Shown here: positions 16,264-47,297 of the stretch, piece by piece
How the letters are laid out: every line of letters starts with the position of its first letter
Position numbering within the stretch: the stretch's first letter is position 1
NCBI RefSeq assembly: GCF_964204645.1
Contig: NC_134027.1
Coordinates: 6,684,485-6,748,484, forward strand
Direction: 5' to 3'
DNA: 64,000 nucleotides
DNA from: Tubulanus polymorphus
Lineage: Eukaryota > Nemertea > Palaeonemertea > Tubulaniformes > Tubulanidae
The notes under the pieces: model-generated
Told to the model about the DNA's origin: nothing
The model's input: only the letters and a program-made list of their open reading frames with translations
The model's database searches: none
Program-made: the position numbers and the translations under genes

Positions 16264-19200
16264 TCAAACAGTTTCAGCATCACCAGTTACTTCCGATATT
16301 GAAGGGTAATCCGGAACCACAGTGAAACTGCCGTACATTCCATTTTCCTCCAAGAAGTCGGAATTGTATTCTAAATCTAAGTAAAGCTGAAAATATGAAA
16401 ACACGTATAACTTTATTCAAGGAACTTTATAATTCCGCAGTTATCGGATGAATGAATACCTCGTTCGAAGTTAACTGCAATATCCGGTCAAATTTCTCAA
16501 CGAGTTCACCGAAGTTGGGTCTATCAGCCGGTTCCGCTCGCCAACACTGTAACATTATCGTGTATCTGAAAATACCGCATCAACGTTATTTCGTTTTTTT
16601 TTAGAGGGCAGTGCTAACACTTTCTTGTATATAGTTTAGTTAGTTCTTAGAATATGATTGTGTGTTATGTATGTAATGTTATATTATACATGTTAAAACC
16701 ATATTATGAAAAAATTATCATTATCATCATCATCATACATTTCTTCATCGCAGTAATCTGGTCGACTCATTCTGTATCCAGACTTCAGCATCTCAAATAT
16801 CTGCTCGACTGGAATACCGGGATATGGGGAACCTCCAAGTGTAGCAATTTCCCAGAGTAAAACACCAAATGACCACACATCACTTTTTGTAGTATACTGT
16901 CCGCTGAGTAATGACTCCGGGCTCATCCATTTGAACGGAAGGCGGCCCTGAAGTAACAAGTCATTATAATGAATGCTTAAGCAGTTCGTGACGAGGAATA
17001 TACGTTTCAGTAATGAACCTACTTTTGTTACTTTAAAGTAGTATCCATTTTCGTAAACTTCTCTAGCGAGACCGAAATCAGATATTTTCGCTACCATATT
17101 ATCAGCCAGTAATATGTTGCGCGCTGCAAGATCCCGGTGAATGCACTGAAAAATTTGAATTATTCATTGGATATCGTTAAAATGGAAATTAATTGCATGC
17201 ACAACTTTCCTGCTCTGGGGTCCACAAAGAGATAAAAGGTTTCCGAAATCCTGCTATGGAAATATTTTTGACAGTGGTTCATTAATCTCGAGATACAGAA
17301 TTAGTTCTAGGCAAGAGGGCTAATTCATTTTTATGCATCTTTTCTATTAGTGTTCTCCGTCAGAAAATCTGTTTACTACCAAACGAACCCAAACCGTTTT
17401 TCCACTACAAAACACATCCATACTGCGCGAATATAAAGCAAGTTACAGCTGCTCTCGAAGTCGGCTTTTGATCTCTCACAACAACAACTTTTTTTTGCAA
17501 AAATCTAGAGTGGTGTCTTACTTATGTTTGATAATACCGACCTTGACACTCCCAAGATGTCGCATGCCTTTAGCTATTTGCCAGATGATGGATATCAATT
17601 CGTTATCTTTCATCAACGAATATGTTCTACTTTTCTCATGATGGGAAGGGGACTTTCGGCCGTCAATCGACTCCATCTCGACGTCGTGACGTTTCTTTTT
17701 CAAGTAATTAAGAAGATTACCCGGTTCCGCGTATTCCATGACAATCATCAGTCGACCTGAAGAAAAAATCTTCTTTCATCAGAGGTCACGTCGCAACATT
17801 CCCCTCAATTAATGGATTCTACGTGTTGGTGCAACAACACCCACTCAATCCATAGCAAATCAATGTATATGTAGTGCAAGGCAGCAAAAAATTGGAAATC
17901 TAACCATTCTTGAAACTAGCTCCGAGCAAGTTGACGATATTAGGATGATGTCCAACGTAAAGCATTTGCTCCAGTTCAGTCTTCAAAGCTTCTTGCTCTT
18001 CAATCGATGCGTTTGCTATAAAAGATGCAGCACATAGTGCATAACTATTATGATATGTGTCTATCCAATGTTAATCTTATTTCAGTAGATCTTCGATGAA
18101 TTTTGGTATCATTTACCTCTTAGTTTTTTAACGGCCACTTTCAGCGGTGTTTGGTTTCCATTGTGATTCGACAAGTACGCCTCGAACACCTGACCGAAGG
18201 CTCCTTGTCCCAACAGCGCGCCTAGTGTGATATTCTTCTGGTGGATGAAGTACTTTGGCGCTAGAAAACTAATGTAAACATTGTCCACGGATTGCTGTAG
18301 CTCAAATGCGCTAGTCATTGACTGCGTTTCCTGCAATAAGAGGAAACTAGTTGAACCTTTCCGAAAGATAATACCTTCTGAGCAGCTTTCCATGGCGAGA
18401 ACGCAGTGTTGAGAAATGACCTGGCATTTAAGAAACACGAACGTATCTATCTATTTGTAATCTCGCTCCTTCAAATCCCATCTTCTGATGCTTGTTTCGT
18501 ATTGTCGTGGTGCAGTTTTAGAAATAGGATGGATCATCAACATTTATAGCATGAATGAGGTAAATAAGGCATATCATATTTTCATATCAAAAAGAAGGCA
18601 AATAAGAAGGGGAATTCACTGTTGCCAGTCGCGTCGATATGGAGCAAAGAGGCAATTCTATCGATTAGAAGCTTTCTTCAATTCACCTCGTAAAGCGGAT
18701 TTTCTGATTTTCCAGACTTTCTCTTCCTGATTAAGATGACCACGATGACGATGAAGCAAACGCCACCTACAACTGCACCTACTACTCCGGCGATCCAATG
18801 AACAACATATTCCCAATCTACAATATACACAGAATTGTATAGCTGAGGAGCAACTTACCTCCAAACATAAATGCTTTCCAAATATTTCTAATCGTTAAGA
18901 AAAGATATTAGAGAAATATGGAGATGTTGAATGTCTGGAAAGTTGTCAGCAAAATACCACTATTAATGAGAATATATATTTCCCAAATTGACAAAAATCA
19001 AGATATTCTATTCATTTTCATGTCGTATGGCATCAATCTAAGAAATCCTAACCGTTTCATGGCATTTCGTGAATATTTTTATTTTTGATACTCCTCTGGC
19101 AAAGAAAAAATCTGATCACATTCTCCTCCAAATCGATGAAAACAAAGAAATGTTTGAAGCTAACTCTAACAACCGATGAAAGAGATTGTTTTGATAATTT

Positions 19201-22200
19201 CTTTCGATGTATAATAAATAATAACCAGTATCGGCCGCAGGTGTTTCCTCTAGCATATCCTTTTTGTAGGATTATCAGTATTTCTTACCATTTTTGTTCG
19301 CTTCATCAGACGATTCTTGTTCTGCGCTGTTTATTTCGCTTTGAGTGGATGGCGGCGTCATTAGACCTGGAATAAATGAAACATGTCGTGACTGCTGATA
19401 TCAGAAAGAGAGAGAGAGAGAGAAAATGTTAACGATATTTTTAATAGTGTTTTAGAATTTCAAAAGAGTGAAATTAAAGTAGTGGCACGTTGATTACATG
19501 TCACGAAATGATCAATCAACTATGATAGATAAGTCAATGATACCTTGTTCGATGAGTTCTTGGTTAGGATACTCCTGACATTCGCCGTAACGAGGGTTGG
19601 TAACTTGAACGAATGTGCCGAATACGCAAACGCACGAATTAATGCTATCCCTTCCAGAATCAGCTTCGGTCGTCGAATACATCGGACATGGTTTACAGCT
19701 TAGGGGGCCCGAGTGGTCTTTGTACGAGTTTATGGGACACGCTGAAAATTTAGAAAGACCATATAGATCGATACATAAGAATCGCCAAAAGACGATATTG
19801 ATATCACGTTATATGATCCCTGTACATAAACTTTATATGATATATGTAATTGTCTTAAACTGTTTGATACAAATTTTCATGTAAAACATAATTCTTCATT
19901 TGCCCGAATCAGCCACCATAACGAAACTGGATCAAATGGGAATTGAAATTTGTTCACTGTTTTCAAGAAATTATTTTCTTTTTCGTCCTTTGATTCGAAG
20001 AATGAATTCTATACGAGCTATACCGTACAATCGTGCTTATCGTGCTTTCAATTATTCGCATCTTTTTGAACGGGTGCGTTGAGAGATGTAGTGAAATATA
20101 CAAGACGAGTAGTGTTGCTATTGACACGGAATCTTCTCTTCAATTAGTCGTAATAACCCCCACCGCCTAATTTTACGGTCTTGTTGGCAATAAATCGGTG
20201 TTGCTATTTATCGAGAAAAAGTGGCCTCACGTTTGCTGGTAAGACCTTTCAGTAACGTCTCAAACGCTGTCATAAACTAGGAGCAATAAAACACATAATT
20301 ACGTTCGCAGTTGCCTTCCTGGTCTTGGGTATAGCCGGGCATACAATCGCAACTGGTAGACGCCTCGAAATGCGTCTTGAAACCAGGCTTACAAACGGTG
20401 CATGGGTAGTTGCCGGGTTGACTTTTGTACGTACCAGTGGGACATACTGTGAAGAAAACAATTTAACTATCATAAACAAATTATGCATGATTAGTAAATA
20501 ATGAAGGCTGGTTTATTACAGAAATTCTCTGTTTGCCTATCACGCCCATCCCTCCTTCGAGGTATTCGAATAATACACAGAAATCACGAAGTTTATAGTT
20601 AACGAAGCTAATCTCAACCTGATCCCTTGACAAGTTCGCCACCAGTGCAAGAATGGCCGTACAAATTTGGCATGCATAGATGCATGCAACATAGAGAAAT
20701 CAGCTGGGGCAAAGTGCGGAAATTGTTGCATTACGTACGTACTCGTGTATTTTTCAAAGATATGTATAAAAATTAATTTACCACACCGAAATCTCTGTGG
20801 ATCCTATGCAGTTAACTTAATTCTATTCAAGAGAATTATTCCATTAATTCGTATTACCTTCGCAACGTTGAGACGTTTCGTTGAACGTATATCCCGCCAT
20901 ACATATGCAATCAGCCGGCGTAGTGGTATTGCCGAAATAAGACGTAGAGAACGGTGGGCAACTTTTACACGAATCTGTCACCATTTTCAGCCTGTGTTGC
21001 CCGTATGATCCGGCAGGACAAACTAGAATGAATATCAGTTCCAAATGCGAATGAAAGTCCTAGAAGGTGAGGTATCTTTTTATGATCTACGAAGTACTTA
21101 TTTGTAATTCTCACCAAAACAGTTCGAGTTCGCACAAACGCACGTGGTTGAATCTGAGACATGGTTTCGTTTCGCACAAACTCTATTTCGAAGAAGGCTG
21201 CACTCAATGTCACCTCGTGAATCGATGTTACAAATTCGGGGCGAATATTCTGAACGCGAATGTTGATGAGAGAGGTTAAATCAAACTGATTGAAAATTAG
21301 ATCCAACACATTTATGCGCTTTAATGCGCTCTATATGTATAAATCTGATTTAAAGAAGCTTACAAAGATCTAACAAAATGGCTATTTTTGGTCGACCTTA
21401 ATAGTAATATTAACAGACTTTTTTTCAACATTAGAAGAACGAACGCCAGAAATTTGAACTAACGTGATTTCAAAAATGTCAAGGGGCTTACCACAGGTCA
21501 TATCTCGCAGCGAGGCTTCTGAAACTTGGATACCGTTCAGATGAGCCGGTGAGTGACATATAGGTACGCTCAATACGGTTTCGTTTGGTTCGTTTTGGTG
21601 ACGGTACCATCGTGCGAACCAAATAAAACGACAATCGCAATGAAACAAGTTGTTGCCAAACTTTCTATAATAGATGATTACATTAAGTGTCGTCATTTGA
21701 ATCAATAGCGAATCGTAATGTATCAAGGTAAACCCTGGTAATCTGTATCACTTCTAGATTTATCGATATTGCTAGGTTTCTATGATACATGAAAATACGT
21801 AGTACTTACATGTTTCCAGCTTGCATTTGTAGAAGACGATCAAGAAGTGTCCGCGGCAGAGTTCTTAACTGATTCCTATCAAGCCATCTACAATCGTATT
21901 GGAAGACCTTTAACCTTTTTGTTTTGATAATTGAGGCGACTTTGATTAATAATAATCAGTATGAGTGAATATAGATATGCGTATATTCTACAAAACCCTG
22001 CGACAAAAACAAATGTCGTTATCGGATTTGTTTATCGAAGCGGGAGGGAATATGTTGAATAACATTTTCCATGCATTATCCTACCTAGCGGCGAGTTTTT
22101 AAAGTCTATATCATGATGCACGATTTCGCATTGGACGTAGTTTATCACCGCACAGAGACCACTTCCTCATAGCGCACTCAGCAACTGTTTTTCGCGCTGA

Positions 22201-25200
22201 CGGCTTTCTTTAGATAAACATGGTGGTCCATTTGGCCAGAGCTAGTCAACCCTCCAGGACTAGGCGACAACAAACCACGAGTGCCACAGGAAGCACATAA
22301 ATCAACATTATGACCGTGGTCAGATATTGGATATGTGGGATATGTATTCATGGAACAATATATTCGTGCGAAAAGCAATTTTCCTCAAACAATAAATCTT
22401 GCAGAAGCTAGTTCATGTTAGCCAATGAAATCGTGACACTCCGAATGCATTTTTTAATACAAAGTCAGGGAAAAATGATCGTCGACGACCTTATGAAAAT
22501 CGAATAGTTGTGATAACAAAACTAAAACTAGACAAGGGCTTCATACTTTTTCGAAGTTCTTCGACCTAAGTGGGTGGCGACGATAAGGTTTCTCTAAAGG
22601 TGGGATGTTTTATGTTTGTAGGATACTTACAACGTAATTAGCTTCGTCAATCCAGTAAACGCGTGATGTTTGATTTCATAGATCAGGTTCTGTGATAGAT
22701 ACCTTCAAAGAGGATATTTTACAAGAAGTAGTTTGTGCAAACCAGAGCGTGTGATAAGTTGGGGAATAGCGCAAACATAAGAGATGGACACTCTCTCATA
22801 GAATTAACTTACGATCATTGTATTGATAGTTTTAAAACAGGACAAACCCGGGCTATTGCAGTGAAATTCCAGTACAACCCTGAGAGTGAAGAGGTATTGG
22901 CTAAATATAAAAAGCTCCTGGTTGCAAATCCCATATTTGATTACAGAGACACGTCCCTCTTAACCATAACCCAAATATTCATGAAACTGTACGCTTTTTG
23001 AGAAGCCGCGGTAGTACAAATGATCTCAACTTGTTCCTTATTAAGTGTAAATCAGACCATTTATAGTATATGATTGACTTCGTGAAATGTTTATCATTAC
23101 ATTATGTAGTTTTCAATTGCATTTTCCGTCGTCGGTCTTATAAGTAATTATCATTATTTTGCAATAAAAGAAAGATTTCTTTGCCAATAAAAAAGCCATT
23201 ATCTAATTAGATTAGGTTGACACCATTGGAGTATAATGTAGGTGAATTACTATGATTCCAATGGTGGGTTTTGACATCTAAAACTGATCATTTTATGTGT
23301 TACATTCGCGTCTAGGCTTCTGCAGTGTTATTCGTATTTTGTCTCTCATTTCTGAGGAAGTCTAAATGACGTAAGAAGCTGTACGAATGTCGTTGAATTT
23401 TGTTGATAACAATTTATATCCGGATGTGTTTCTTCATAGACTCTCCACACTAATGTCGTTTTGATCAATAAAGATATTTCTAAATCTAGATTATTTACGG
23501 TTGTTTGCTACAACTCCCGATTACCAAGGAGTTACGTGCATGCCATGTTTTTCATTCCTGCTTAGCGATCACTTACATGTAACTTAATGAATTGAGAAGA
23601 CTGAGGCCATCAGGGACTACAGTAATTCGATTCTTTTTCAGATCTCTGGAAAGAAAACTGTATAATTTTAGTATCGTGAAAAGAATTTTGTGTTAAATCA
23701 ATGAAACGGTTTAAATCAAGCCTTACTCAAGCCTATTTATAGCAGGATTGATTTCGATATAATTAAATGTTAATATGATTATAGAGAAATCTAAGATATC
23801 GAGTGTTTTCACGTTACATTTCTAATGTGGTCCTAATGCGATGCATTTAGAATCTCTTTTGATTATTATCATTTCATCGAATGTGTTCATTTATTATCTA
23901 ATACACAATTCTACTACTTCGGGCGGATTGATTCCTATCCAATTCAACCCGAATGAATCAAATCTTGCCATATTCCTATCACGGTGAGTTTCATCATGAC
24001 ATACACATATACATTGTATTCGACAGTGCGGTTTAACCCTGGGAAGTCGAACGTTCGCGCAAAAAGCACTGAATATTTTACTTACAGTGTGCGAAGGTGA
24101 TTAAGATGACGAAGGGCGTCAATAGGAATAGACATTAAGCTGTTTTCCGAGAGCATTCTGTAGATAAAGAAAAAAAATTTGAATTATTGCCAGGAGAAAA
24201 GAAATAACGATAGGAAATCCTTGAACTAACGGAATTGAAATTGATTTCATCCTTATTTGCCATGAGCAATCCTTGCTTTGCCCGGAGTAACTCGGAACCC
24301 AATTCCAGTTAAGCTCAGAATAAAAAATCAGTTTGTTTTCAAGGTTAGAACTGTGGAATCAGGTCGACTCGGATGTTAATCATCGGACCTATGAAATGAG
24401 ATTTTTTGTCCAATTAGGGCAACACTCACAGATCTGCCAAGTTTGGCGTCGTGGCAAAAATTTTATCGTCGATAACTTCTACTGCACATCGTCGGATGTT
24501 CCTGAAAAATTAATCGTATCATTATAAGCACATGGACAGAAATGATCGAATTATTCATTCTCGAAATGCTCGACCCTCCTATCCGCCGAAAATGTAGAGC
24601 ATTCTAAAAATCTTATAGATAGCTCACCCAACCGCCCAGAGGCTAGCTTGGATCAGTTATAATGCTGAAGCCCAATATACACGACGAACCATTTTTTCCC
24701 GCGAAACCAGGCATTTCATCTGAACGCACAAGGAGGGGGAACGCACGGAAACATGCTTATGTCTCGGTTTTCTGTGTTTCCGTGCGTCGTGTGTGTTGGG
24801 CTTTAAAAACTGGCGCTTTTATCTCGATCATCAGTCAACAGGATTAAACCCTTTGATGAAAATTAAGCGATTTCAACTCAAGAGTTGACTCTTAACTCAC
24901 AACTTTGAAACTGGGCCCAAAGCTAAAACTGGCTTTGGTTCATTCATCGAATCTAAATCTGTATGTAAATCGTTGTATCGCATCGAGTCTAAATCGAGTC
25001 ATGGTTTATTTCAATAAGCGCAAAAATCAACTTACAGACGTCTAAGACGCGACAATCCGGTGAATACCGCAGGGTCTCTTAACGTATCATTAAGCGGATT
25101 GGCCATCAAATTACTGCGAATAAAAACGATTCATTAGAAAAACCGGTTAGATTACACAAGCGCTTCTTAATCAAAATCTACGATAATACTGAAAATTATC

Positions 25201-27353
25201 CGGACCGAACCCATACATTTGTATCCAATATGCTATTGAAGGTGTTCATTTCATGTCGTATCATTCTATGGAATTTTTCCATAAAGACAGTAAAATCAGC
25301 ATTTCTCAAGAAGAAACAATTATGGAAATACTCACATAGTATGTAAGTTCTGCAGATTACGAAACGATCCCGGTTCGATGATATTTATCCTGTTAAAATC
25401 CAGTCGCCTGCGATAATGTATTAATTAAAGTAAGTTCTTTGTCACAAAAGCATTATCCATTACTTTTTATATATAACTTACAAAAATTGTAAGCTGGAGC
25501 ACTCCTTCAGTAATGTGTTATTGATTCGATTAAGCTGGTTTCCGGCAATTTCCCTGAAAAATTGGAAAAAAAAACTGGAATAGAAAACAGCTCGCCTCAT
25601 CACCAAATGTAAAAGTGATTTATAATTATCACGGAGATCAAATCAATTATCGAATCATACGTACAGAGTTATCAAATATCTAAGGCCTTTACAGATGTTG
25701 TCTGGAAGTGTTCCAATCATATTATCATTCAGATATCTGCAGAGAAAGTAACCAATTATAACCAATGTGAATAAAATAAAGTGACAAGAAATTCGTCTGA
25801 CCCATCACATGCCAGTTTCCGCCACGGTGATTGGCTGATATTAACTAATTGCGAAAGCGGGTGAGAGAGAATTTTATACTGATGAAGAGGTTTGGGTATT
25901 TTGTCAGAATCTGTTCGCCCGCTCCATGAGAAAACTGACATGAGAGTTATATATAATATTACGAGACTATTTTGCCTTCGTGATTTCTAAAAGTTCTACG
26001 TTATTCCATAAAGCACATAAGATGATCTACAGTTAGTAAAAAATCATTAATACAGTTTTATTGTACTGGTAATGATAGATGTACGTATACAGTATACTGA
26101 GTATTCAGTCGCGCGCTTTACCGCTCCAATAGCAGCCCCTTAATTAAGACCTTTATAAATCTTCCTCTAGATCCTACTTATTATCAATCTATGAAGCCTT
26201 GACAGAACAGATAGTTCGAGCAACAAGTATATTAAAAACAGCCACTATCGGCGGAGTTAGGTTTCTTGCGAATGAAAAATTAAAACGACACTTCAAACGT
26301 ATATTGATTTTTCATTAATCATGTCTCGGTACGTACCGTCTCATTGTGCCATTCATCAAAGTTTATTGAGATTGAAGCGCGACCTAAACATTGCCAAATA
26401 ACGACCACAATAAATTTCGCTAATTCAATCGATGAGTCCGTAAAGTCCCTGATGATCAATCATCAAATTCACCAGATATCGAAACAGTCTAAATTTAATT
26501 TTGGTTTCCGTGTCAACAATATAATGTAACTGGTGATACACGCGCAATCACACTAATTGTAGCCATTGTGGATTCTCAGATTGTCTTCGTTTCCAGGAAT
26601 CATCTTTCGAGGAAAAGGCTTTAATTGCTCGTAAACCCAATCTACTAGCTCTTGACTTTGCATCTCTACTTTATTTCAAATGGGGATCTCTGCACAGACA
26701 ACGTTTTGAAAACTTTAAAACTGATGTACTTACATTGATTCAATGTTGGGCAAATTACTAAAATCGATAGTGGAAACGTCGGTAATATCATTCCTTTGAA
26801 GATCTCTAGAATAGAATATTAAGCAAGTATTAGATAATTGACGAAGAGAATAAGATTCGTGATGTCTATGTTTTAAAAGGAATTTACTCACAAAATGAGC
26901 AGGCTTTCTTTGATTTTTTGTGGAATGCCAACTACTAACTCGCGGATGTCAGTTATTGAATTTCCGGCTAGATTGCTGAAAATTAAGGTGGTCAAACGTG
27001 CATTTTCTATCAAAAGAATGTTACTGTCATAGCTAAAGTCAAAGTAGAGCCGACAGGAAAAAAGTTATTTCGAACAGAAAACATGGTTTGAAATTCCTGT
27101 CTTAAACTTCCTGAGAAAGTCATGAATGTTGCATCACTTCGTGCATATACTTACATAGAATGGAGACTACGAAGGTGTCCTAAACTACTCATTTTCATTT
27201 GAGAAATGGAATTTTCTTCAATGTATCTACAGGAGAGAAACAATAAAATAAACAGCCTACGTATATTCTTCAAGTGCGTCTTGTAAATATGATAATGTTT
27301 TATTCGCGATTTAAATTAAAATATAAAGTAGCAGGAATAGACACAAAATAATG

Positions 27354-27388
<35 letters not shown>

Positions 27389-30300
27389 ACGCTGGGCGAC
27401 TGGTGAAGTTAACATAATTACCTGAAGGGCCCAGTCGCCCACACACTCACGTTCGTGCACATTCATACCCCATTCATTACCATTGAAAATATAGTTCCAT
27501 GACATTTGGTACTTTAAATTGAATCGATCAGAAATATGTAACAATCTAAACATATTGAGAAATGAAATACCTCTTTACAGTATTTCCAAAGGATGCGAGG
27601 GATTGACATGATTTCAGATTTTTTATGTACTGAGTTCCAGAGTTTTGGGCCTTTGTAGATTATTGTAAATTGTATATAGTTATTCTATAGATATTCATTA
27701 TTTGCATAGATGAATATGCATGATATGAGGTCTAAAGGTGATTCAAATGTACCTGGTATACGTGAGAAATGTACTTATATAAATAAGAATGCTAGACAAC
27801 ACATATTAGATCCTTATTTTATGCAAATGAAATGTTTCATGTTAGCCGCATCGCCACACAGGGATTAACGTGATGTGGGGCATGCGTTAATTGCTTGATT
27901 CTAACGGACTAAGGGAAAATCATCGACATCCACAAACCTGATATTATGAATATGATATTATCATATACCTATTACTAGAAGTAAAGTGAAAATTGTACCC
28001 TAGAAACTCCCTTTTCAGGTTGATTTCTCACTGTGTACGAGCGGCTTACAGTTTTAGTTTGTTTCTTTAGTTTGTTTCTGAATAGAAAGTATGATGTTCA
28101 AGCTCGCACTTCAAGGCTGGATTACCACGGAATACAGTAAATGACTAGCGTCACTCAGGAATTGCAAATGGAAATGTAAATGTTGCTTCCTTATTTGGAG
28201 ATATGTGAGTCGGCTAATTTTAGATATCGGTTAGAGCCTTATCAAATCTCAGAAGGTCACACCGTTAATTACACCTTGAGATCGGCAATTATTAACCAGT
28301 TACAGAACTGTTCTTTAAAGCAATGACCTCAAACCTAACCTTGCATGTATAAGTAATTAATATTAGATTAGCTCATATGAGATTGGATCGGATGAGAGAT
28401 GAGATGAGGTAAGGTGTATAACGACTTAAACATAGCATATTTGTATACTCGCGAGACATTCTTTTCTTGCGGTCGTTCGTCTTTGCTGATGCCATTCACG
28501 TAACAGGCATTCGAGAAAATACACCGATTTATACGGAGTGCGCGTTATGATGGTACATTGATTGAAGAAGTTGCAAAATTGTGACGTCGAATGGCCTCAA
28601 CGTTATCTGCCCATGAATATCATCGCACAGCTCGTGGAACGATGATCGTTCTTTTTCCAGGAAAGCGCACGAACCCAATGAAGTGCCACATAGGGTATCA
28701 TATATAGTTCGAAAGTTGGAAACGGTTATTTCAAACTGAAGGCCATCGTCTCCAAGGTGAGAAGCTAGATTCTCAGTTAATTACCGGAAGTGGGAGGAAA
28801 TTGCAACGACACTTATCATTCTGATCTTTCTACCGGTAAATCAATAGATGACACATCGATCCAAAACAGTTTCTAAACCCATCCCAATCTTTGAATTTGA
28901 AGATAGACAAAAAATAACCCAACTTGTTCAATCATTGGGAGACCATCTCTGCAAAATGTGACTTCCTCCTATTTGGCCATAAACATCTTACTTTAAATAG
29001 AAATATTCAGTTATCATCAATAACCTCCAACTTCATATCGAATTACAATAAGCCATCTATGTATTTATCAATATATCCATCCATCTATCTATCTATTCAA
29101 TACGTATTTTTACGTCTTGCATGAAGCTTATAAGGCGTATGTAATTTTTGATAAAATGTTTTTCCTCTTGAAATAGATATTGAAAAATCTTTCAATTAAA
29201 ATAAAGCAAGATACAAAGCACACAAGCTGAGGGCAGGCAGCGTTACTGAAAGCGTACACCGATGCCTTTTGTAACGTGAAATTGATTTTGACTTTTACTT
29301 TTCAACCCGAGGAGCTTTTACATCTGACATAAGCAGTTTAATTCCATTTACGTGAATGTGAATAATACGTATAGAATTACGGGGTTTATGGTTTTTTTTG
29401 TGCAGAAAAAAAGATTAAATTATGAAAAAAAAAACAGTATTCCTATTAGAATTGCGAATCGGTTTCACTATTGCCCATAAAGTTATCAAGATCAAAAGAG
29501 GATTTCTAGGCAGACGTGCAGATAATCAAATTTAGATTGTTAATTGTTTAATCAACAGTTAGCTTGAACTAAAGAAAAATTGATTTCTAATTAATGTTCT
29601 CCAGTTTATCATCGGACAGGAACTAATCACTTCTGATAGAGCATATAATGAGACAATTAATTATACGTTAATCGTGTTGAAGGATAAACTTTGCTTTTGC
29701 CATCAATTAAAAAATCACAAGGGAAAAGGATTTCTATTTCTGTTCATCGTTTTTTTTTCTGGCGATTTCGAAACTGTCAGAAATTAAACCATTACATCAA
29801 TTGCAAGATCAATTTATCAAAATTATCATTTTATCAAAAAAGTGAGGGCAACACCACGACAAGCTAGTGATTTAATATGTTTGATAATTCTGGTTGAATG
29901 AATTAACGCGGAAAAATGAACTTCTATTAAAGTGATTATGTTTCTGGGAGCTACAGAAAAATAGAAATAATTGTCGTCAGGATAATGCTGTATCAAAATC
30001 AATGGTCTGATATACCAGTGCGTTGTATTCACTTAATCAAATCGGGGACGATCCAGTAGTTTGAAATGAAGTCCTAAAACATTCTAATGCCTCTTCGAAT
30101 TTTCCTCTTCCAATGGAACGCCGTAACAATTTCCGCGAAAAGGTCAGTCGCAAGAGTCATATATAGCGAAAGACATACACATAAATTGGCCACAGATATA
30201 TATCGCTTTTTGCTGAATACAAATTGTCCCATCTCGTTTACCTGCAAAGATGACCCGGTTCGTAAATGATGAGAAATGGCAACTAATTGCAGGGATTGGT

Positions 30301-33300
30301 GGTAACGTTGGGCGGAAATTGGAGCTGTTCTTACGTAAATTAATCACTATGCTAGTCAATCTTCTCATAGAGACGAACAAAAACGTAAGTTCCTGTCAAC
30401 ATAGAGGGAATTTACTGCGATATGTAATGCCACTGACTCGAGGCGACATGGGATGTCATCGCATCAACCTTTGTTTATACACATTTCTCGTCAACCGAGC
30501 TGCTATAGACATTGTATGCGTTCTCAAAATGTCTACTAATTGGTTATAAATTACTGGCAAAATGAAGATTTGGATTGAACTTTTTTACATGATGTCAGCT
30601 CAAGGATTTTATCGGGATTCCGTTGCCAAGTTAAGCAAGGATTCATTGCCTCAAAAGGATGTTATCATGTACATTGAACACCGTTCATTGACGCATTATA
30701 ACATTCGAAGATATCGAACTGGGATCATTTGTCTCTAAAGCCCCAGATAACGAATGGAATATTATCGCCATTAGGTATCAACTAACAAAGACATGTCGGG
30801 CATAGGTACGGAAGCGTACATAGGACAACCATTGAACTATTGCCGTTATTGCGGGCCAAGTCAAAATTATTTCAACACTAATCCACATTCTTAACTATCA
30901 TTGGTAGGCTCTAATGTTGCTTATGGGGACCGGTCTCTTCGTCTTCAACTTCGGCTGGAAGCGACCGAACCTTGGCGAAGCGAGGATGAAATATATTGTA
31001 GGTCTGTATACTGAAAATGCGTGCGATGATCTCCATTTATGATTCTAGGACAAAAGACGTTACAGTGCATTAAATTCTCGGTCGCTTTGGAGGTGTGGAA
31101 ACAACAGATTGGAATACATTGCGACATCGAGCGTTAAATCAACAGACGCAGACGAAGAACAATCAGACTTCATTAGAGCGTGGGTATTTTCCATCGAGAG
31201 ATCGCATTTTGATTATCGAAGAAAACACCACAAGATGCTTCAACAAGTTTGTTCGCGATACTTTATCGCTAGAAACTTTGTGTCTATTTCGCGACGCCAC
31301 GATTCGGGTGATATACCATCGATTTACTCGTGGAAACAACACAATTAAAGAAATTGAAAAAATGCATTTAAGATAATGAACTGAGTATTTGTATGGATCT
31401 CCCGTCTTTTGGTATTTCCATGCACAAACTGTCCGATTGTGTATGTGTGAACAAGCTGCTTTTGATTCGTTGGCAGTGATCAATGTGACCAATTGGAAAT
31501 AATGATTGGCTTTCGGCATTTCATTCTTTCAAGCTTTTGGCCACAATGGAACCGGTAGTACATAGCAATCCATCGCATTACAGCTACATTTTATTATCAG
31601 ACTGAGGTTCCAGATCCGATGGAACGTATCAGGGTTATCGAATATGTCCACGGTTCTTTTCCCAGTTATGAACTAATTATTCAATATGGCAATACTGCCG
31701 TATCGTAAACCGGGGCTTTCTGCAACACTCCGTCAAAACTTATTTTTCTGGGGAAACCAATTTTCCCAATTTGAATGTCTAGGATACGATCAGTTTGATG
31801 GACTTTATATATTTGTTGAAACTGAACATCAACATTGTCTTAGCAACTGACTTAATAGTCCATGTCACTTTAGATAGATCATAATAATAGGTAAATACCA
31901 CTGTCATATTAATGATTCGATAACATCCGAAGTGTTAGAACGTAATTATAAAGCTCAATTAAAATCATGACGATTTACCCATATCAGCTAATGAAATATG
32001 ATCGTTTGAACAATGGAGAAAAAAGATGAAGTTGCGTTCCACGAGTAGCATGCCTTACTACACGACCTGATCCCCGACAAAGACACCACCGCACTGTAAG
32101 AATAGAAAAACCGTTACCCTGGAGTATCGATGACAACAGGTTGTCGCTGTAATTACACCGGCTTATGTAAAGATCGAAAAGTACGCGTAAAAAATGTCTG
32201 CCGCCATAGCGCAGGATGACGCGTATGGAGATCTCAACACCTGCCGATAGCCATCCTTCATTTTTGTTTTATTCAAGTGTCAATTCTTAATCTTATAGAC
32301 GCGACATGCTTAAGCGGGTCAAAACAAATTTATGCGTATGATCTACTGCATTACTTCTTCTTTCGACTTATATCATTTGATTTATATACATGCATTTTCA
32401 ACACAGTTAATTCGTTCATTCGAACAATGGTGTCTGAAGAATGCCGAACACGCATAAAATGTACATCGCATTGTTTAGATCAAATACAGAAAAATCATCC
32501 AATCGAAAAATTAAGATTCGTTAATCTCTCCTGCAGACTACTTGGAAACAGCTCTCTTCTCTATCACCGCCGGTTATGTTATACGTCGTTATTAGGATCA
32601 AATTGATGTGTGATCTAAAGCTTGGACAGTACGGGGATCATATTAATCGTGATGCGGTAGTCTTTAAAATGTAATATCTATCTATTTGTGGAAACAAGTA
32701 AAGATCTGACAAAGAGACGCACCCACATTCTGCATGATACATACACGAAAGGCAATAAAATTGAGTCAAACTTGATGAATTATACGGGCGATCATAAAAA
32801 TTACATCTGTTACTTTATGGAATATTAAGCATTAAGTATTAAGGTAGCATATGCATGTTTGTATTGGTCAGAGATATCTATGATACATCAAATGTTCGTG
32901 TGGGAATACTGTTTCATATGAAAATGAACTCTGTGCCGAATGCATAGTGAATATGAATATCTAACTTACTATTTCAAGGACCAATCTGAAGGCAATATGG
33001 TAATTCAACAATATATAGATAGTATGAAATGATAGATTTTTCATATCTCAAAGAAGAAATCTTCTCACGGAGGAAAATACAAAGCCAACAAAAATACTTT
33101 GAAGTCTTGCCTAATGCTTGATTGCATTGTCCTTTTCATTGTCTTCCGTGGATCAAATTTTCCAAGGAATAAAGTATCACATTTAGGCGACGGTTAGACT
33201 GCATCTGTTATTTTATCTGTCACGCACGCACAACTTTGAATCCGTGTGATAGTTTAAGGGCAGTAAATGACACATTCGTTTACCATATTATTGTGTGGTT

Positions 33301-36152
33301 ACAGCTGCAGGGGCGGATCCAGAATATAAAGGAGAGGCGCTCCGCTGGCCTACCGCCAGATAATTTTAGAAAATTAGTCTCTTTTTCATGCAATCTGAGT
33401 GTATTTAGGCACTGCATGACCATTTCATTCATACATTCGAAATGTACCCTTGACTTTGATAAGTAACATTAAACAACTGAAAATAGATTATACGATGGAA
33501 ATTTACCAACGGGGGGTGCTCTAGTACTGTACCCAACGCACCCCTGGATCCGCGCCTGAGCTGGATCTGGTGTGCTTCATCAATGCGGTCCGTCATCAGA
33601 CTATCAATTAAAGAGGTACGCGGTAATAATGCCAGAAGTAAAAATGCCAGGGGTGTAGAAATGCCAGAGATAAAAATGCCAGGGGTGTAGAAATGCCAGA
33701 GGTAAAAATGCCAGAGGAAATAGGGAAGGGTAAATTGATTCCATTTTTATGAGAAACAAGTATATCAAAACTTATAAACTATTCATCAAATTGTTGCTTT
33801 GATGTAATGAATTACAGCAAACTGACTCGTCGGAAACTTTCTGATTTCAATTATAATACCTATTATTATATCTAGAGATATGCTTTATTTGAACTGTGTA
33901 TTCAATATGTAAACTCAAAACTCTGTGCATTAATTTGTTAATATTCATAAATTTAGAAAAGCGTTATATATTTCTTGCTATGTCAGACTTTATTTTACAA
34001 ATTTGTGATTCTCTTTGTTCTATAAATTTGTCACTCATTTTTTTTTTTTTTTATGATCATAGGAATATGTTTTGTATATTGTATATCTAAAATGTGCATT
34101 CATTACGTAAAATCTAGTATAAATAAGAATATCAGGTCCAATGTTAATGAAATCTTCGCTTAATTTCCCTCATATTTCCTTCTGGCATTTTTACCTCTGG
34201 CATTTTTACCTATGAAGTGATTTTTACTTCATGCATTTTTACTTCTGGCATTATAACCTGGATTCAATTAAATATGTTTCATTTTTTGTTGAGAGGCGGA
34301 CAGCAAGTACCGCTAAAAAGGCAAAGGTCGGAATACATCGATATACTCGATTAATTTGACATTTGCCATGCCCGTTCCATAAACTCATCTAGCTGTATGA
34401 ATTCTACCAGCCACTAAATTCATAGACATAAATCTTCCGAGATGCTTTCATGGAATTAAATGAAAAGGTTTTCGCATTTCAAGTATGATAATAAAATACG
34501 AGTAAACGATTTTTAGAACTTCGCAACATCTTCCCAGGAGATAGACCCCGGAAATAAAGTGAATTCGTATCATGACAGGTACACACCGTACGATAACCCC
34601 TAGCCGTTATTCAATTAGAATAATGTATCATATACACCACACCTGTTACAAGCTTTAAATCAGATTTGATAACATAAGTCCGTACTGATTAAGCCTTTGT
34701 TTTGGATATGATATTATGGGCCACGTATATCTCCTATTATTTTGTAGATAGTTCCCTGAGTGCAGAATTTTACGTTGTTGCCTGGTTTTCACTTTCGAGT
34801 AAACTATAGCTAGTCCAACTGAGGGTGTCATAAATCTGAATATGCGTGAAAAATATAATTTTGAGTTATTTCTGCATTGGGGTTTTGGTTACGGTCGAAC
34901 TGATGGAAACATTGTTTCGATTTTTCTGGGATTCAAACATGATAACAAGTCGTTTGCAACCTGGAGAGACATTTACCTTACTCTACCGATATCTTCTTGG
35001 CGTGGGGCGTCGGGGCATCTAAAGCCATAGCTCAGAGTAGGAATTTTTATCAACGAATCTCGCAAAAATATAGATATGATTTATCTTTATATTCTCGTAG
35101 TACCCTGATTATTGATTTGGTTACGCGTACGGTGTGAGTGGGAGGATGATTAACTATCATCAGAGGCGCAATTCTGGGACAGATCTCAGAATTCCAAACT
35201 ATTTATTTCCCTGTGGTAACTGTTACCCACAGCTGTGGAACTACGGTCCACGGTACACACAATGTTATCCAGGGACGCGCACTGCCATTTCAATCATTAG
35301 GGGTGTGTCAGTGTCCATTTTTCTGACGGTTTAAATGATCTTTCTTTACAATCGACGAACATCCTTCCGTAATCAAGTACGTAGTTTATGGACCGACGAT
35401 GGGAAACGCACCAATTATTCCATTATGTTTGATTTACGCATACGTCGCCCGATTCGAAAACCGAGAACATCAAAACTGGGTTAGCTACAAACGTTTGCAT
35501 CGGAAATGCGCTAAGAAAATGAAAATGCTCACTTCGAAAAACTATGAACATATTATGTTTTTTAGCGACTAAATCTGCTATGAAAACCCCACAAGCAGCA
35601 GAATACCCAACTAAATATTTGATGTTCGTTCTGTTTATGTGGAGATGAAGGAACCTAAGTTGGGTGAATGTCGTAGTAAAGAGTACGCGTTATCAAATCA
35701 CCGTCAAAGCTTCGATATCCTGTATAATAACTCGTTGATAGTTACACCGAATTGTTTTGATAAACTTACGCTGAATTCGTAAATTGGGGCGATGAGAAAT
35801 CCTTTTAAAATCTCCGCTCATCCCAGAATAATAGCCCTGACACTTTGAGAATCAATCAGTCCCAACTTAAAGAAATAGAATATAATACGCTATCCAACAC
35901 CATAAAAAATACATATATCTATACTCACAAGTGTTTGGTAATGTCTGGAATGTTTGAAAGCACCGAATCAACATTTTCACTACCGATAAAGCTGCAATTC
36001 GTAATGAAACCTTCGTGGCCCACTGGCCGACATGTACAACCGTTCGGGCAATTTAGTTTCTCGGCTGTTACGGCCGAAACAACTTTTAACAGAAGAAAAA
36101 TCGCTAAAAAGTCGAATAGCGACCATTTCGGGCGATACGAATTCACGATCAT
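16264..36152 (-). CDS. Receptor tyrosine kinase with LRR and GCC2/GCC3 ectodomain
   Basis: 27 exons: 36152-35929, 27226-27155, 26975-26892, 26805-26734, 25736-25665, 25553-25482, 25407-25336, 25113-25036, 24501-24430, 24157-24086, 23645-23577, 22702-22631, 21887-21810, 21664-21492, 21249-21115, 21022-20858, 20446-20303, 19741-19544, 19366-19289, 18817-18687, 18330-18117, 18015-17905, 17756-17542, 17145-17023, 16947-16739, 16565-16460, 16386-16264; 3,234 bases, 1,077 residues. Order: signal peptide; LRRNT (CPNGCTC); 12 LRRs, one per exon, all phase 2, mostly 72 bases; LRRCT ([13 protein letters not shown]); a six-Cys module; three GCC2/GCC3-type modules ([24 protein letters not shown]); a membrane span about residues 672-697. 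Kinase: GQGAFG from 752, Lys about 779 (VAVKK), HRDLAARN 894-901, DFG 914-916, [24 protein letters not shown]. Tail: [16 protein letters not shown], resembling the YLDL site of FGFR and RET. It should be a plasma-membrane receptor; the ligand is unknown. The donor after GSVK (GTCGGT) is weak; extra small exons cannot be excluded. Confidence 0.88.
16721..16738. repeat. (ATC)n microsatellite touching a kinase splice donor
   Basis: A run of ATC triplets on the plus strand starts immediately inside the intron after kinase exon 16947-16739. On the minus strand the donor GTATGATGATGATG is therefore part of the repeat. Confidence 0.8.
19407..19422. repeat. (AG)n microsatellite
   Basis: Eight AG units in the intron between the third GCC2/GCC3-type exon and the juxtamembrane exon of the receptor kinase. 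Confidence 0.85.
24668..24803. mobile_element. 136-bp inverted-repeat element in a kinase intron
   Basis: The left end AAGCCCAATATACACGACG is an imperfect inverted copy of the right end CGTCGTGTGTGTTGGGCTT. Inside, CGCACGGAAACA and TGTTTCCGTGCG form a second perfect inverted pair. No ORF. It lies between the LRR exons at 25113-25036 and 24501-24430. It looks like a MITE; I could not fix a target-site duplication. Confidence 0.55.
27354..27386. repeat. (TA)n microsatellite
   Basis: About sixteen TA units, followed at once by an 11-bp inverted repeat (27393-27441). Confidence 0.9.
27393..27441. repeat. Short inverted repeat, 11-bp arms
   Basis: TGGGCGACTGG and its perfect complement CCAGTCGCCCA are separated by 27 bases. 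It sits directly beside the (TA)n tract, a pairing common where a small element has inserted into TA-rich DNA. Confidence 0.7.
33308..33558. mobile_element. 251-bp nonautonomous DNA transposon with 5-bp target duplication
   Basis: Starts CAGGGGCGGATCCAG and ends CTGGATCCGCGCCTG, inverted copies of each other with one mismatch. AGCTG flanks it on both sides (33303-33307 and 33559-33563), consistent with a target-site duplication. It has no transposase. CAGGGGCGGATCCAG-type ends are widespread in invertebrate MITEs; I do not assign a superfamily. Confidence 0.75.
33622..34258. mobile_element. 637-bp element with long inverted ends built of tandem ATGCCAG units
   Basis: The left end begins GGTAATAATGCCAGAAGTAA and the right end is its inverted copy (GGTTATAATGCCAGAAGTAA on the minus strand). 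Within both ends a unit of about 15 bases, ATGCCAG followed by RGGTAWAA-like sequence, repeats several times: five further copies on the left, and on the right two clean and two degenerate copies in inverse orientation. The AT-rich centre has no supportable ORF. It begins 64 bases after the previous element. Confidence 0.72.
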
Positions 36153-38573: not shown

Positions 38574-39965
38574 TTAACTTGGATCCCGGATACGACTTGC
38601 CTCTATGCCGGAATATACCATTGGACTAGCCCTGCTCTTCAGGGTTACTTTGGGACCGTTTTGGATACCTTTAATCGTTTGGGCTCCAACAAGTACATAC
38701 TTGTTCGCAGCCGGCGATACGAAACTACTGGTTGATTTGTTGCGCACAGAAATACTGTAACTCGGCCCTGAGTTTTCAACGCCTGGGTAGTAGGTAGCTG
38801 GCCCGGGGTATTCACCACTTTTACACGGTCGCTCGAATCTTTTTGCCATGCTTATCTGCGGAGCTACGTTATTTTCCTGCCGGATGTTGTATTTGTTTGG
38901 ACCTGGTACATCGTATTTCGAATCGCAAGCTCGTTTCCCCATCGTGTGTTTCGGTCCGTCGTTCCGCGTAAACTCCCGCGAGAGATCGTAGCTGCCCGGA
39001 CCGGGAACGTTGAATTGCTGTACCTCGTCCGCTAAAGTGGGGACGGTTCTCTTGCGGAAGGTGTATGCTGCAGCGTTCGGTAGATTGATTGAAGTTACCG
39101 TATATTTCTCAGGTCCTGGATGCGGCATTGTCTCCGTTCGTTCAAACCAGCGATAAGCTAGTGGAGCCGTCTTTGCGTTTGTTATTTTTTCCGGCAATGT
39201 GTACATATTCGGAGCCGGGACATTCTGTTTAGAATTATGAGCGATATCTTTTTGACGACTGGAGATAGACTTAGCTACTGACTGTCCTATCGTCGAACTT
39301 ATGTCATATGCGCCCGGTGCTGGGTAGTTATCACGTACAACTGCTGGGAGACGCTTAGCAAATGAATAGGCGGGCCCCGGTGCGGTGGTGATAGTATACT
39401 CAGCTGGACCAGGTCGTATCTCTGGTAAAAAACATTCGCGTCTGCTTGATCCAAATGACTTCATCGGGCCTCCGCCAACACAAAAATTTGGTTTATAGTT
39501 TGGTCCTGGTGTGGTGAATCCGTGGGTATCGACGGGTTGGACTAGACCATGCGGTGGCCCACTGATACAACTCTGCTTCCATTTCAAACCCATTGTATAT
39601 TTAGCTCCACTTGTTCCAGTTGCCATATGGTTAACATTGTATTGAGAAGGAGGAGGTACCGTCGATATACCACGTTGAGTAGTCCTCCCTTTTCCTTTAA
39701 TCGTTACCGTCTTCGTTCGCCATTGCATATTCTTCGAGGTATTGTAATCGGCTGGTCCGACGTTGTACGGTGGCAATGGAGACAGTTTTCTGCCACCTAT
39801 TGAATATTCTGCAGCTTTGCTTTTGGTCAGGACGATATTTGGACTGTAGTCAGAGGGGGCAGGATTACAGGTTCCATGCGATGACAATGGAGTACCACCA
39901 GGCGGTGGAATGTACTCACCCATCGCTGTCCGGTGTATCGGTGGTCTTTGCGAAGGAGGTTTCAT
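38574..39965 (-). CDS. SHIPPO-repeat protein, CIMAP/ODF3 family
   Basis: One 463-residue reading frame from ATG 39965. I chose this ATG rather than one at 40010 because a clean acceptor (TATCTTTTAG) lies ten bases before it; the upstream exon is then noncoding. The protein carries about twelve Pro-Gly-Pro type motifs spread evenly (VGPADY, TPGPNY, RPGPAEY, HPGPEKY, VPGPGSYD, VPGPNKY, YPGPATYY), the signature of SHIPPO repeats. Family members such as ODF3/CIMAP1 and STPG proteins sit on microtubules of sperm tails and cilia. At 463 residues it is nearly twice the length of mammalian ODF3 (about 254), so exact orthology is open. It is divergently transcribed from the EFCAB12-like gene. Confidence 0.9.
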   Translation of the reverse strand: MKPPSQRPPIHRTAMGEYIPPPGGTPLSSHGTCNPAPSDYSPNIVLTKSKAAEYSIGGRKLSPLPPYNVGPADYNTSKNMQWRTKTVTIKGKGRTTQRGISTVPPPSQYNVNHMATGTSGAKYTMGLKWKQSCISGPPHGLVQPVDTHGFTTPGPNYKPNFCVGGGPMKSFGSSRRECFLPEIRPGPAEYTITTAPGPAYSFAKRLPAVVRDNYPAPGAYDISSTIGQSVAKSISSRQKDIAHNSKQNVPAPNMYTLPEKITNAKTAPLAYRWFERTETMPHPGPEKYTVTSINLPNAAAYTFRKRTVPTLADEVQQFNVPGPGSYDLSREFTRNDGPKHTMGKRACDSKYDVPGPNKYNIRQENNVAPQISMAKRFERPCKSGEYPGPATYYPGVENSGPSYSISVRNKSTSSFVSPAANKYVLVGAQTIKGIQNGPKVTLKSRASPMVYSGIEASRIRDPS

Positions 39966-39975
39966 TGTTGATTTC

Positions 39976-40315
39976 CTAAAAGATAAAAGTACAAGGTATT
40001 GATTAAACATGATTCTCTTCTAAATGAAGTAAATAGATATAGTGATTCATATTGCTATGCACCATTATATACATTTCATATTTTTTCAAATAATGATGTT
40101 GCCACACCTTTTTGAAAGTGACTTTGAACTATGCGATGTCGACTTTTTCACCTCTGCATCGCTTGGTTCACCAATTCCCCATTCGTCTATTCGCTTCCCC
40201 CAAAGTCCAGCCATCGTTGCAGGGGCCATGTTGGTGTACTTGTCGTGTTGTCTGGTGAAAATTGCCAGGGAACTGAACTAGCAACGGTGGTAACCATGCA
40301 CAAGACAAAAACGCT
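39976..40315. promoter_or_regulatory. Shared divergent promoter of two ciliary genes
   Basis: About 340 bases separate the first coding exons of the SHIPPO-repeat gene (minus) and the EFCAB12-like gene (plus). Near the plus-strand start, AGCAACGGTGGTAACC contains two RGYAAC-type RFX half sites in direct repeat, and ATTGCCAGGGAAC at 40261 is an imperfect X-box. RFX factors drive ciliary genes. None of these sites is a full consensus, so the regulation is inferred. Confidence 0.45.
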
Positions 40316-42070
40316 ATGATGGAGAACCTTCAAACTCCTGACGCTAAAAGTATTAGTAACCATGTTATCGACGATCTTAAACAATACTCATCGAGGGATT
40401 TAAAGCACACAAAATTTTATCGTTGCGCCAAACGATCATTTACTGATGAAAAAATTCGCAGCAGACGAATTACAGCACCACTGCATACATCGGAAAAGGC
40501 AGGCATGTGGTCCATGTCAGCAAGATGTACCCCACACAGCCAGGTGTCGCCGCCGACGCTTAAACATGAAAAGAAACCGACATATTCACAAAGAGAGGAA
40601 GCCATGGATGTAATTGAATATGATGATTGGTTGAGACAGCGGAAGAAAATGCGACATGAATTGTCTAAAATGGGCATGAGCGAAGGTTATCTAGCGAGAA
40701 AACCAAATCTGACGCCCATAGAAAGTCGTCTGTTAGAAAGGATGCGAAACGCAAGAGCTGTGAAACGTGTCAAGTCTGCCAAGACGCTGGTACAAGTGAA
40801 TATAACTCTGACGCAGGAAGAGATCGATGAACGGCGTCGACGTCGATGTACGAAAGCCTTACAGATCATAGAAAAACACATTAAGTTGAAACGAATGCGA
40901 CTGCTCGATCTGTTTAAGTCTATCGATAAAGACAAATCATGGACTGTCACGAGAGACGAATTCAAATTGGCGATAGATCGTGCCGGAATTGCGCTTCCCG
41001 GTCCCGTTATGAATGACCTGATATTCGCTCTCGACGCTAACAATAAAAACGAACTGGACTACAGGGAATTGGCCAAAGCATTGGGTGAATGGAAGATAAC
41101 CAAACGAGAAGTGAGAAAAAAGTTGGACCTCGGTGTCAACGAGGATCTGCCAGGGTTTAATCGCCGCCAAGGAATTCTTATACATTCCGATGAAATGGGT
41201 AAAACAAGCGCTACCGTGTTTGAACAGTTCAGATTGATTAACCAGCTGACCACCAGAAGGAATACGCAGTCACTCCTACCGCAGATAGCGACGTTCCTTA
41301 ATAGCACTGGACAGCCACAACATCGGCAACAACAGAAAGAAAGGAAGACGGAGAAAAAGATCAAACGTCAAAATCGCGTGGAGGTAATAAAAGCGATCAC
41401 AGATCACAGTAAACCGAGCGCCCTGACTGATGAAAATACGGCCGACCAGCTTAATCAATTCAGAGCCAAACAGCTGAAGGAATATTATAAGATTATGGAG
41501 CTGTGTAAAGAACGAAGTATAATATTTTCCGACGCCCTGTTGGAAAAGGCGCTTCTCTATCCAGCAGATCAGTCATACGAGGACATAGTGAATAAAAAAA
41601 TGATCAGTGTACCGGGGGATCAACTTCTGTCGTGTAAGTTCGCTCAGATAAAACCGCGGCTGCCCTCGCCAGACCACACGTACAAACGTTCGCAGTCGGG
41701 TAAATTACTGATGGATGAACGAAAATTTTATCCAGCCGCTTCACTGTTAGATACAGCACCTACCCGAGTCGATTTATCGACGGGTAAAGCTTACGTTTCG
41801 AGAAAAGTTGACTGTTGGTTGACGTTTGAAGAGTATTGCAAATTGACAAAAAATATCGCCAGATATCGAGATGTAAGTGGAGTGAAAGAGAACGCCTTCT
41901 GGCCCGGTGAACTGCTGGATAAATTGAGATTATACATGGACGACGAGAAGAACGTATACGGTGCAAATACAGCTTTCAGACTTGTGCAAACAAGTGTGCC
42001 AGCCTATCCGGGTTACAACAGTATCGAATCGTGGCCTGAAAATGAAAGTGGTTATGTCATGCTGCCATGA
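40316..42070 (+). CDS. EFCAB12: EFCAB12-like EF-hand protein
   Basis: A single 584-residue frame opening MMENLQTPDAK. The middle holds two EF-hand loops: DKDKSWTVTRDE (about residues 203-214) and DANNKNELDYRE (about 240-251). Both have acidic residues at loop positions 1 and 12. The first has D-x-D-x-S ligands; the second has N and K at positions 3 and 5, so its calcium affinity may be weak. The region before the EF-hands (EYDDWLRQRKKMRHELSKMG, SRLLERMRNARAVKR) and the ordering fit EFCAB12, a poorly characterised protein of ciliated tissues. It is head to head with a SHIPPO-repeat gene, which supports an axonemal role. The stop codon overlaps a perfect 17-bp hairpin. Confidence 0.8.
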   Translation: MMENLQTPDAKSISNHVIDDLKQYSSRDLKHTKFYRCAKRSFTDEKIRSRRITAPLHTSEKAGMWSMSARCTPHSQVSPPTLKHEKKPTYSQREEAMDVIEYDDWLRQRKKMRHELSKMGMSEGYLARKPNLTPIESRLLERMRNARAVKRVKSAKTLVQVNITLTQEEIDERRRRRCTKALQIIEKHIKLKRMRLLDLFKSIDKDKSWTVTRDEFKLAIDRAGIALPGPVMNDLIFALDANNKNELDYRELAKALGEWKITKREVRKKLDLGVNEDLPGFNRRQGILIHSDEMGKTSATVFEQFRLINQLTTRRNTQSLLPQIATFLNSTGQPQHRQQQKERKTEKKIKRQNRVEVIKAITDHSKPSALTDENTADQLNQFRAKQLKEYYKIMELCKERSIIFSDALLEKALLYPADQSYEDIVNKKMISVPGDQLLSCKFAQIKPRLPSPDHTYKRSQSGKLLMDERKFYPAASLLDTAPTRVDLSTGKAYVSRKVDCWLTFEEYCKLTKNIARYRDVSGVKENAFWPGELLDKLRLYMDDEKNVYGANTAFRLVQTSVPAYPGYNSIESWPENESGYVMLP

Positions 42071-45921: not shown

Positions 45922-47297
45922 TTTAGAGCGCTCTATGGTATACGCATACCCAAGATTTTCAAACAACTTCTTCGCACAGTAATTGCTATAGTTCGTAGTA
46001 TTCTTGTCAAAATCACTGAGAATCTAGGCCGATATTCGTGAGCGGCATCGTTGAATATTCTTCAATTTGTCAATTAGCCGCCATAGACATAATGACAAAT
46101 TCACACGCGTGCGTCAATTAACTTTCGCAAAGGCAGTTCTTGGCAACGATAAACCATACAAAACATCGTCTTTCATTCCCCACCGATGACGGACAGCAAT
46201 TAAATGTCGCCGTGTTAGGTACATATCCTATACATCCGCGAGATGATTCGAAATTCACCCGATATAGTTGCATTCCGATCGATCTCGAGGTTTTTCTTTT
46301 AGATATGCATCAATTGCGCCGATCGCGTGCCTCCAAATATTCGCTTCACTCTACCATTGATGATGTGTTCGATGTTTCCCTGGTAGCGACCGAAAATACG
46401 GTACCAATAAACCTATTGTTAAATACAACTACGTCAATCAGCAGAGCCGTTAACATTTAATGACCTCAGGTCGCAGTTTCCTTTCTGATATATTCTATAC
46501 TATAGACATGCATAAAAGCTTGAATATCATCCGGTAGAGTCGCTTGTTTTCTTGTCGCTTATGTCCGTAATATAACGACCGTTTGATTTTCGTTATCTGG
46601 TTTCCGACCGAGGTCTAGAAGTTGAACGGAGTGCACAAATATCTGTGTCTTTATCGCTAAATCTGCACGAATTCGACATAGATTTTTTACGCAAACGGGC
46701 GTCAGTTCGTATTCGCAGGAGAAATGAGTAAATAAAAAAAAATCACCGTAACCGGTATATTTCTTTTTTTAAAGATTCTTTTAGATTTTAAGATTATGCT
46801 TCAAATGATTAGTCGTTAAGATATTATAGAAAATCAAATACGGCACAAAGAAAATCGAGGTTATTCAGCCACCCGATGTTAGAGCCGTGAAGGATTTCGT
46901 AAGACGATCCGCCGCGACCAACCTATCATTGCTTACCGTACACTAGCGCCACTATCATCGGGTTTGTAACCAGCCCTGGTAAGCCATGTAGGCCGCGGCA
47001 TTTTTAGGGCGGTTTTATTTAAGCAAAAACTCTGAAACAAAATTTATCTTTCGTACCACTAATATTGCCAACAAATATTATTATCTAATCTTTCTTTATT
47101 CCCCTTTGATATTAAAGCTAAATACTTTAGCGATAAATAGTTATCTTCGAATATGCTGTCATATATTCATATTTATCATCATGATAATTTTCATCATTAT
47201 CTATTATCGCATCATTTATAAAGATTATTAACGTACAAAAAAGATACCGTCTAATAAACATTTCCATCATTTACTGACGATTCAATTCATTCTTTAT
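45922..47297. other. Divergent spacer between the ankyrin gene and eIF4E3
   Basis: About 1.4 kb. It should contain the ankyrin gene's 5' UTR (and perhaps an upstream exon) and the eIF4E3 promoter. A 106-codon plus-strand ORF at 46140-46460 has no motif or splice context and I do not call it a gene. Confidence 0.5.

Follow-up and report, generated by a model that had tools for sequence, protein, structure and literature searches.

The tyrosine kinase receptor ApLRRTK from Aplysia californica (NP_001232922) contains a signal peptide, 8-9 LRRs, a GCC2_GCC3 region, a transmembrane (TM) segment and an FGFR-like kinase (Pollak et al. 2014, PMC4200351). The protein is located on neurons and enhances the effects of FGF. 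In HEK cells it increases the activity of tyrosine kinases, and it stimulates neurite outgrowth via its own kinase, MAPK and CREB (PMC4200351). In the same study ApLRRTK was proposed to be an FGFR which is devoid of the Ig domains and has LRRs instead (PMC4200351). A tree published in 2016 placed it in the FGFR/RET group with no preference between the two. Because orthologues of its kinase in other molluscs and in amphioxus show no homology in the ectodomain, a recent association of both parts was suggested (PMC5176290).

In this paper we concentrate on a stretch of 64,000 nucleotides (the window, G000 C3:6684485-6748484) from an assembly of 267.8 Mb in about 12 large contigs, which was searched as a whole. 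The window probably harbours an intact gene, present in a single copy, which encodes a receptor tyrosine kinase (RTK) of the ApLRRTK type. The preliminary description had considered the architecture of this receptor to be undescribed. This does not hold, as ApLRRTK is a named receptor with such a layout (LRR-GCC2/GCC3-TM-FGFR-class kinase) known since 2014 (PMC4200351), and the architecture is therefore not new in kind. Its main interest is that it is found intact in a second, different lophotrochozoan genome.

Gene model and exon order

On the minus strand, 27 exons with GT..AG splice sites were spliced in silico into a single frame, which runs from 36152 to 16264. The predicted CDS, known here from genomic DNA alone, comprises 3,234 nt, is free of internal stops and encodes 1,077 amino acids followed by a stop codon, which exactly reproduces the coordinates and the length given before. 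The domains follow each other in the order signal peptide, LRRNT, 12 LRRs, LRRCT, six-Cys module, three GCC2/GCC3 modules, one TM helix and a split tyrosine kinase. The exons are (window positions):

Exon 1, 35929..36152, minus strand: start codon, signal peptide (hydrophobic stretch at residues ~10-30), LRRNT
Exon 2, 27155..27226, minus strand: LRR 1, 72 nt, phase 2-2
Exon 3, 26892..26975, minus strand: LRR 2, 84 nt, phase 2-2
Exon 4, 26734..26805, minus strand: LRR 3
Exon 5, 25665..25736, minus strand: LRR 4
Exon 6, 25482..25553, minus strand: LRR 5
Exon 7, 25336..25407, minus strand: LRR 6
Exon 8, 25036..25113, minus strand: LRR 7, 78 nt
Exon 9, 24430..24501, minus strand: LRR 8
Exon 10, 24086..24157, minus strand: LRR 9
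Exon 11, 23577..23645, minus strand: LRR 10, 69 nt
Exon 12, 22631..22702, minus strand: LRR 11
Exon 13, 21810..21887, minus strand: LRR 12, 78 nt
Exon 14, 21492..21664, minus strand: LRRCT, by Cys pattern and PDB alignments to residue 428
Exon 15, 21115..21249, minus strand: six-Cys module C-x9-C-x7-C-x11-C-x-C-x4-C, phase 1-1, without Pfam match
Exon 16, 20858..21022, minus strand: GCC2/GCC3 module 1, phase 1-1
Exon 17, 20303..20446, minus strand: GCC2/GCC3 module 2, phase 1-1
Exon 18, 19544..19741, minus strand: GCC2/GCC3 module 3, phase 1-1, PF07699 with 29.1 bits (above cut-off)
Exon 19, 19289..19366, minus strand: stalk
Exon 20, 18687..18817, minus strand: transmembrane helix (residues ~672-697), NPLY juxtamembrane motif (707-710)
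Exon 21, 18117..18330, minus strand: juxtamembrane region, glycine loop, VAVK lysine
Exon 22, 17905..18015, minus strand: kinase N-lobe (alpha C)
Exon 23, 17542..17756, minus strand: hinge, kinase insert, alpha E
Exon 24, 17023..17145, minus strand: an 11-letter protein stretch, activation loop YY
Exon 25, 16739..16947, minus strand: kinase C-lobe (SPES, DVWSFG)
Exon 26, 16460..16565, minus strand: end of the kinase domain and tail LTSNE
Exon 27, 16264..16386, minus strand: C-tail from LYLDL (PLC-gamma-type site), stop codon

Exons 2-13 encode one LRR each (69-84 nt, all twelve in phase 2-2), exons 16-18 one GCC2/GCC3 module each (all three in phase 1-1), and exons 21-27 the cytoplasmic part. 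The sole long intron is intron 1 with 8.7 kb, in which the ORF list contains no additional LRR exons. A short tandem motif (ctctggcatttt / aaaaatgccaga) is present in this intron at 33590-33715 and 34170-34255, in opposite orientations, and the pair resembles the termini of a small transposon.

That two adjacent genes, one for an LRR/GCC protein and one for an RTK, have been wrongly joined is very improbable. The introns in the region where ectodomain, TM and kinase meet measure only 177 (18-19), 471 (19-20) and 356 bp (20-21), which leaves little room for separate gene ends and makes two genes implausible. Furthermore, the phases are compatible and the frame is unbroken across exons 18-21, the LRR-GCC half has no TM of its own upstream of exon 20, and neither half shows independent ends. 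The receptor gene is confirmed as real and complete.

Ectodomain modules and kinase class

In the spliced protein Pfam recognises LRR_8 in 8 stretches (E 1.3e-44) and Ephrin_rec_like, which is the current name of the GCC2/GCC3 family (E 1.8e-12). When the GCC modules were tested exon by exon, module 3 alone passed the curated cut-off of 23.1 bits (29.1 bits); modules 1 and 2 are individually weak (19.8 and 14.6 bits). All three have the Cys spacing C-x13-16-C-x2-C-x13-17-C-x-C-x11-15-C in common. Own Pfam matches of LRRNT and LRRCT were looked for and not found, and both were called by their Cys patterns, C-x3-C-x-C in exon 1 and C-x-C..C..C in exon 14, and by PDB alignments (TLR7, FLRT2, LRRC4B) which extend to residue ~428. 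The six-Cys module also has no counterpart in Pfam, and neither the Ig family nor a cadherin-like ectodomain is found among the Pfam matches to the spliced protein. Taken together, Pfam (kinase, LRRs, Ephrin_rec_like) and the Cys patterns bear out the domain order of the preliminary description. The PDB solenoids which resemble the LRR part are LGR, ALS, TLR and FLRT/LRRTM, a likeness that does not identify a ligand.

The tyrosine kinase comprises residues 746-1027 (Pfam, E 2.1e-91), and every catalytic motif is intact, as had been claimed: the glycine loop GQGAFGQV (752), VAVK (776), HRDLAARN (894), DFG (914) and YY (926-927). The top PDB kinases are FGFR1-3 (E ~1e-89 to 1e-93), and the best pairwise kinase scores are those of FGFR3 (51%) and FGFR1 (49%). 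A tail-inclusive alignment carries on past the kinase, with LTSNELYLDL in the window receptor and LTSNQEYLDL in FGFR1. In FGFRs the tail region LTSNxxYLDL holds the docking tyrosine for PLC-gamma, and by sequence this site is retained in the YLDL of the C-tail. The juxtamembrane NPLY is an NPxY motif; Trk uses a motif of this type for PTB adaptors.

A kinase tree was calculated in which the window gene was accompanied by four kinases from the PDB and by 12 others that had been assembled from this genome. The window kinase lies within the FGFR/VEGFR/RET group (support 91/96), with VEGFR as its neighbour at modest support (86/81). Together with the PDB matches this upholds the earlier assignment to an FGFR/RET-like kinase. 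A grouping with the Trk-like kinase of the genome was rejected (p-AU 1.7e-6). Constraining the window kinase to the RET clade gives a p-AU of 0.148, and to the FGFR clade, which is not recovered in the free tree, 0.225, so that neither is rejected. By sequence, the window receptor has a kinase of the FGFR/VEGFR/RET class, within which the tree does not decide between FGFR, RET and VEGFR. The 2016 placement of ApLRRTK in the FGFR/RET group, with no preference, agrees with this (PMC5176290).

With respect to intron positions, five of the six in the kinase of the window gene are also present in the VEGFR-like gene of the genome. The introns 892/phase 0 and 933/phase 0 are common to the window gene, the genome's FGFR and the VEGFR-like gene and are absent from three FN3-type orphan kinases of the genome, which use other positions. 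The introns 820/1 and 1038/0 are shared with the VEGFR-like gene only.

The pairwise scores, the FGFR type of the C-tail and the fact that the FGFR clade is not rejected would fit a true FGFR of the Ig-type clade in which the Ig domains were lost and LRRs acquired, comparable to the 2014 proposal for Aplysia. However, we consider this origin doubtful, as the free tree sets the window kinase beside VEGFR and does not separate FGFR, RET and VEGFR. Moreover, the genome has kept a separate canonical Ig-type FGFR, and the window receptor is therefore not its replacement.

Genomic surroundings

The preliminary description had also suggested a lineage-specific family. An expansion within the genome is unsupported, because the Cys-module region matches itself only in the whole genome and all other kinase loci stay at or below 63% identity. 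By the former measure the receptor is single copy.

The canonical Ig-type FGFR is encoded at G000 C2:21357001-21369548 (L031/L004). Its tail keeps EEYLEL, and the kinase introns found in it (4/4) lie at intron positions of the window gene. The genome further encodes a VEGFR-like kinase, Trk-like kinases and three orphan RTKs (L006/L032, L007/L033, L015/L034) with FGFR/RET-class kinases and, by eye, FN3-like ectodomains, which are possibly Nork-like lophotrochozoan receptors. There are two FGF matches and one neurotrophin (NGF family) match (L049, G000 C1:4657311-4657610, E 2.4e-15), the latter being a potential ligand of the Trk-like kinases. The same insulin-receptor-like kinase exons occur twice, at C13:32533-35757 (L010) and C3:3456741-3459965 (L011); the C13 contig is 244 kb long and the duplicate is probably an uncollapsed haplotig. 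A compact Hox cluster at G000 C6:5318222-5634756 (L035-L043, L046) consists of ten genes on one strand within ~316 kb. Its members include Lox5-, Lox4- and Lox2-like genes, with a Lox5-like para-peptide (KLNGP) and UbdA-like tails, which we take to be a lophotrochozoan mark. A search of the assembly for mitochondrial COX1 was negative, and the families of mollusc haemocyanin and annelid linker proteins had no match, which carries no information because the controls were negative as well.

Within the window the receptor gene is intron-rich, and three long uninterrupted ORFs adjoining it are apparently single-exon genes. They encode a sperm-tail SHIPPO repeat protein (38574-40019, minus strand), an EF-hand protein (40277-42070, plus strand) and an ankyrin-repeat protein (44533-46023, minus strand). 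Exons of neighbouring genes, all on the minus strand, show a transglutaminase C-terminal match (61419-61778), an RRM match (57237-57551) and a sub-threshold F5/8 type C match (1906-2211).

Comparison with known receptors

ApLRRTK was compared by its published description, that is by architecture and kinase class. Both receptors have a signal peptide, tandem LRRs, GCC2_GCC3, a single TM and a kinase in this order, no Ig, and a kinase of the FGFR/RET class and not of the Trk class. The window receptor differs by its 12 LRRs (8-9 were called in ApLRRTK), by a shorter ectodomain (TM at ~672-697 versus 922-944) and by the additional six-Cys module recognised in it. From architecture and kinase class only, we infer orthology of the two genes; the longer ectodomain and the lower number of LRRs in Aplysia count against it.

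These two differences would also fit a convergent fusion, in which LRRs and GCC2/GCC3 joined an FGFR/RET-class kinase independently of Aplysia and the similarity to ApLRRTK is a resemblance only. The LRR exons (2-2) and GCC exons (1-1) are symmetrical and exon shuffling is therefore easy. In addition, the published orthologues of the ApLRRTK kinase reportedly do not have its ectodomain, so that an independent fusion is possible (PMC5176290). Nevertheless, we regard convergence as quite unlikely, because the unusual order of LRRs, GCC2/GCC3, TM and FGFR-class kinase without Ig is common to both receptors, and one assembly is more economical than two independent ones.

The full architecture in a second genome, which in size and number of large contigs differs from that of Aplysia, argues that it is more widespread than Aplysia, and the window gene speaks against a fusion restricted to Aplysia unless the same fusion occurred twice. 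We give an even chance to the idea that LRR-GCC2/GCC3-kinase receptors are an old lophotrochozoan class, which exists beside the canonical FGFR and has its own undiscovered ligand, and not a recent fusion in Aplysia. If this is true, the published recent joining of ectodomain and kinase in Aplysia would be wrong. ApLRRTK is an orphan receptor on which long-term synaptic facilitation depends in a classic model of memory. Its origin has been explained either as an FGFR without Ig domains or by a recent fusion, and a second intact case, in a genome that also has a canonical FGFR, makes both directly testable. The window gene can be used to date the fusion, to separate LRRTK from FGFR and to indicate conserved LRR surfaces for ligand searches.

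With regard to function, the 12-repeat LRR solenoid would bind an extracellular protein ligand or an LRR-bearing partner, with the Cys modules as stalk. Ligand-induced dimerisation would allow the split FGFR-class kinase to trans-phosphorylate the YY of the activation loop. The phosphorylated tail tyrosine in YLDL would then recruit PLC-gamma, the juxtamembrane NPLY might bind a PTB adaptor of the Shc/FRS2 type, and both could lead to Ras-MAPK. This is the best-supported reading of a mechanism which in the window gene is established at the level of motifs only. By analogy to Aplysia, MAPK/CREB signalling and a neuronal role may be expected in the window species.

With Eph receptors the window receptor has the Ephrin_rec_like module alone in common; ephrin-binding domain, FN3 domains and SAM tail are unmatched in Pfam. 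Trk (NTRK) is likewise an LRR-bearing RTK with an NPxY juxtamembrane motif, but its ectodomain combines few LRRs with Ig, unlike the 12 LRRs without Ig found here. The RET and VEGFR/PDGFR classes belong to the same kinase superclade and differ by cadherin-like or Ig ectodomains. FGFRs (human FGFR1-3 and the genome's own on C2) possess an Ig ectodomain where the window receptor has LRRs and Cys modules, while they share with it a split kinase with ~46-51% identity, the YY activation loop and the PLC-gamma tail site.
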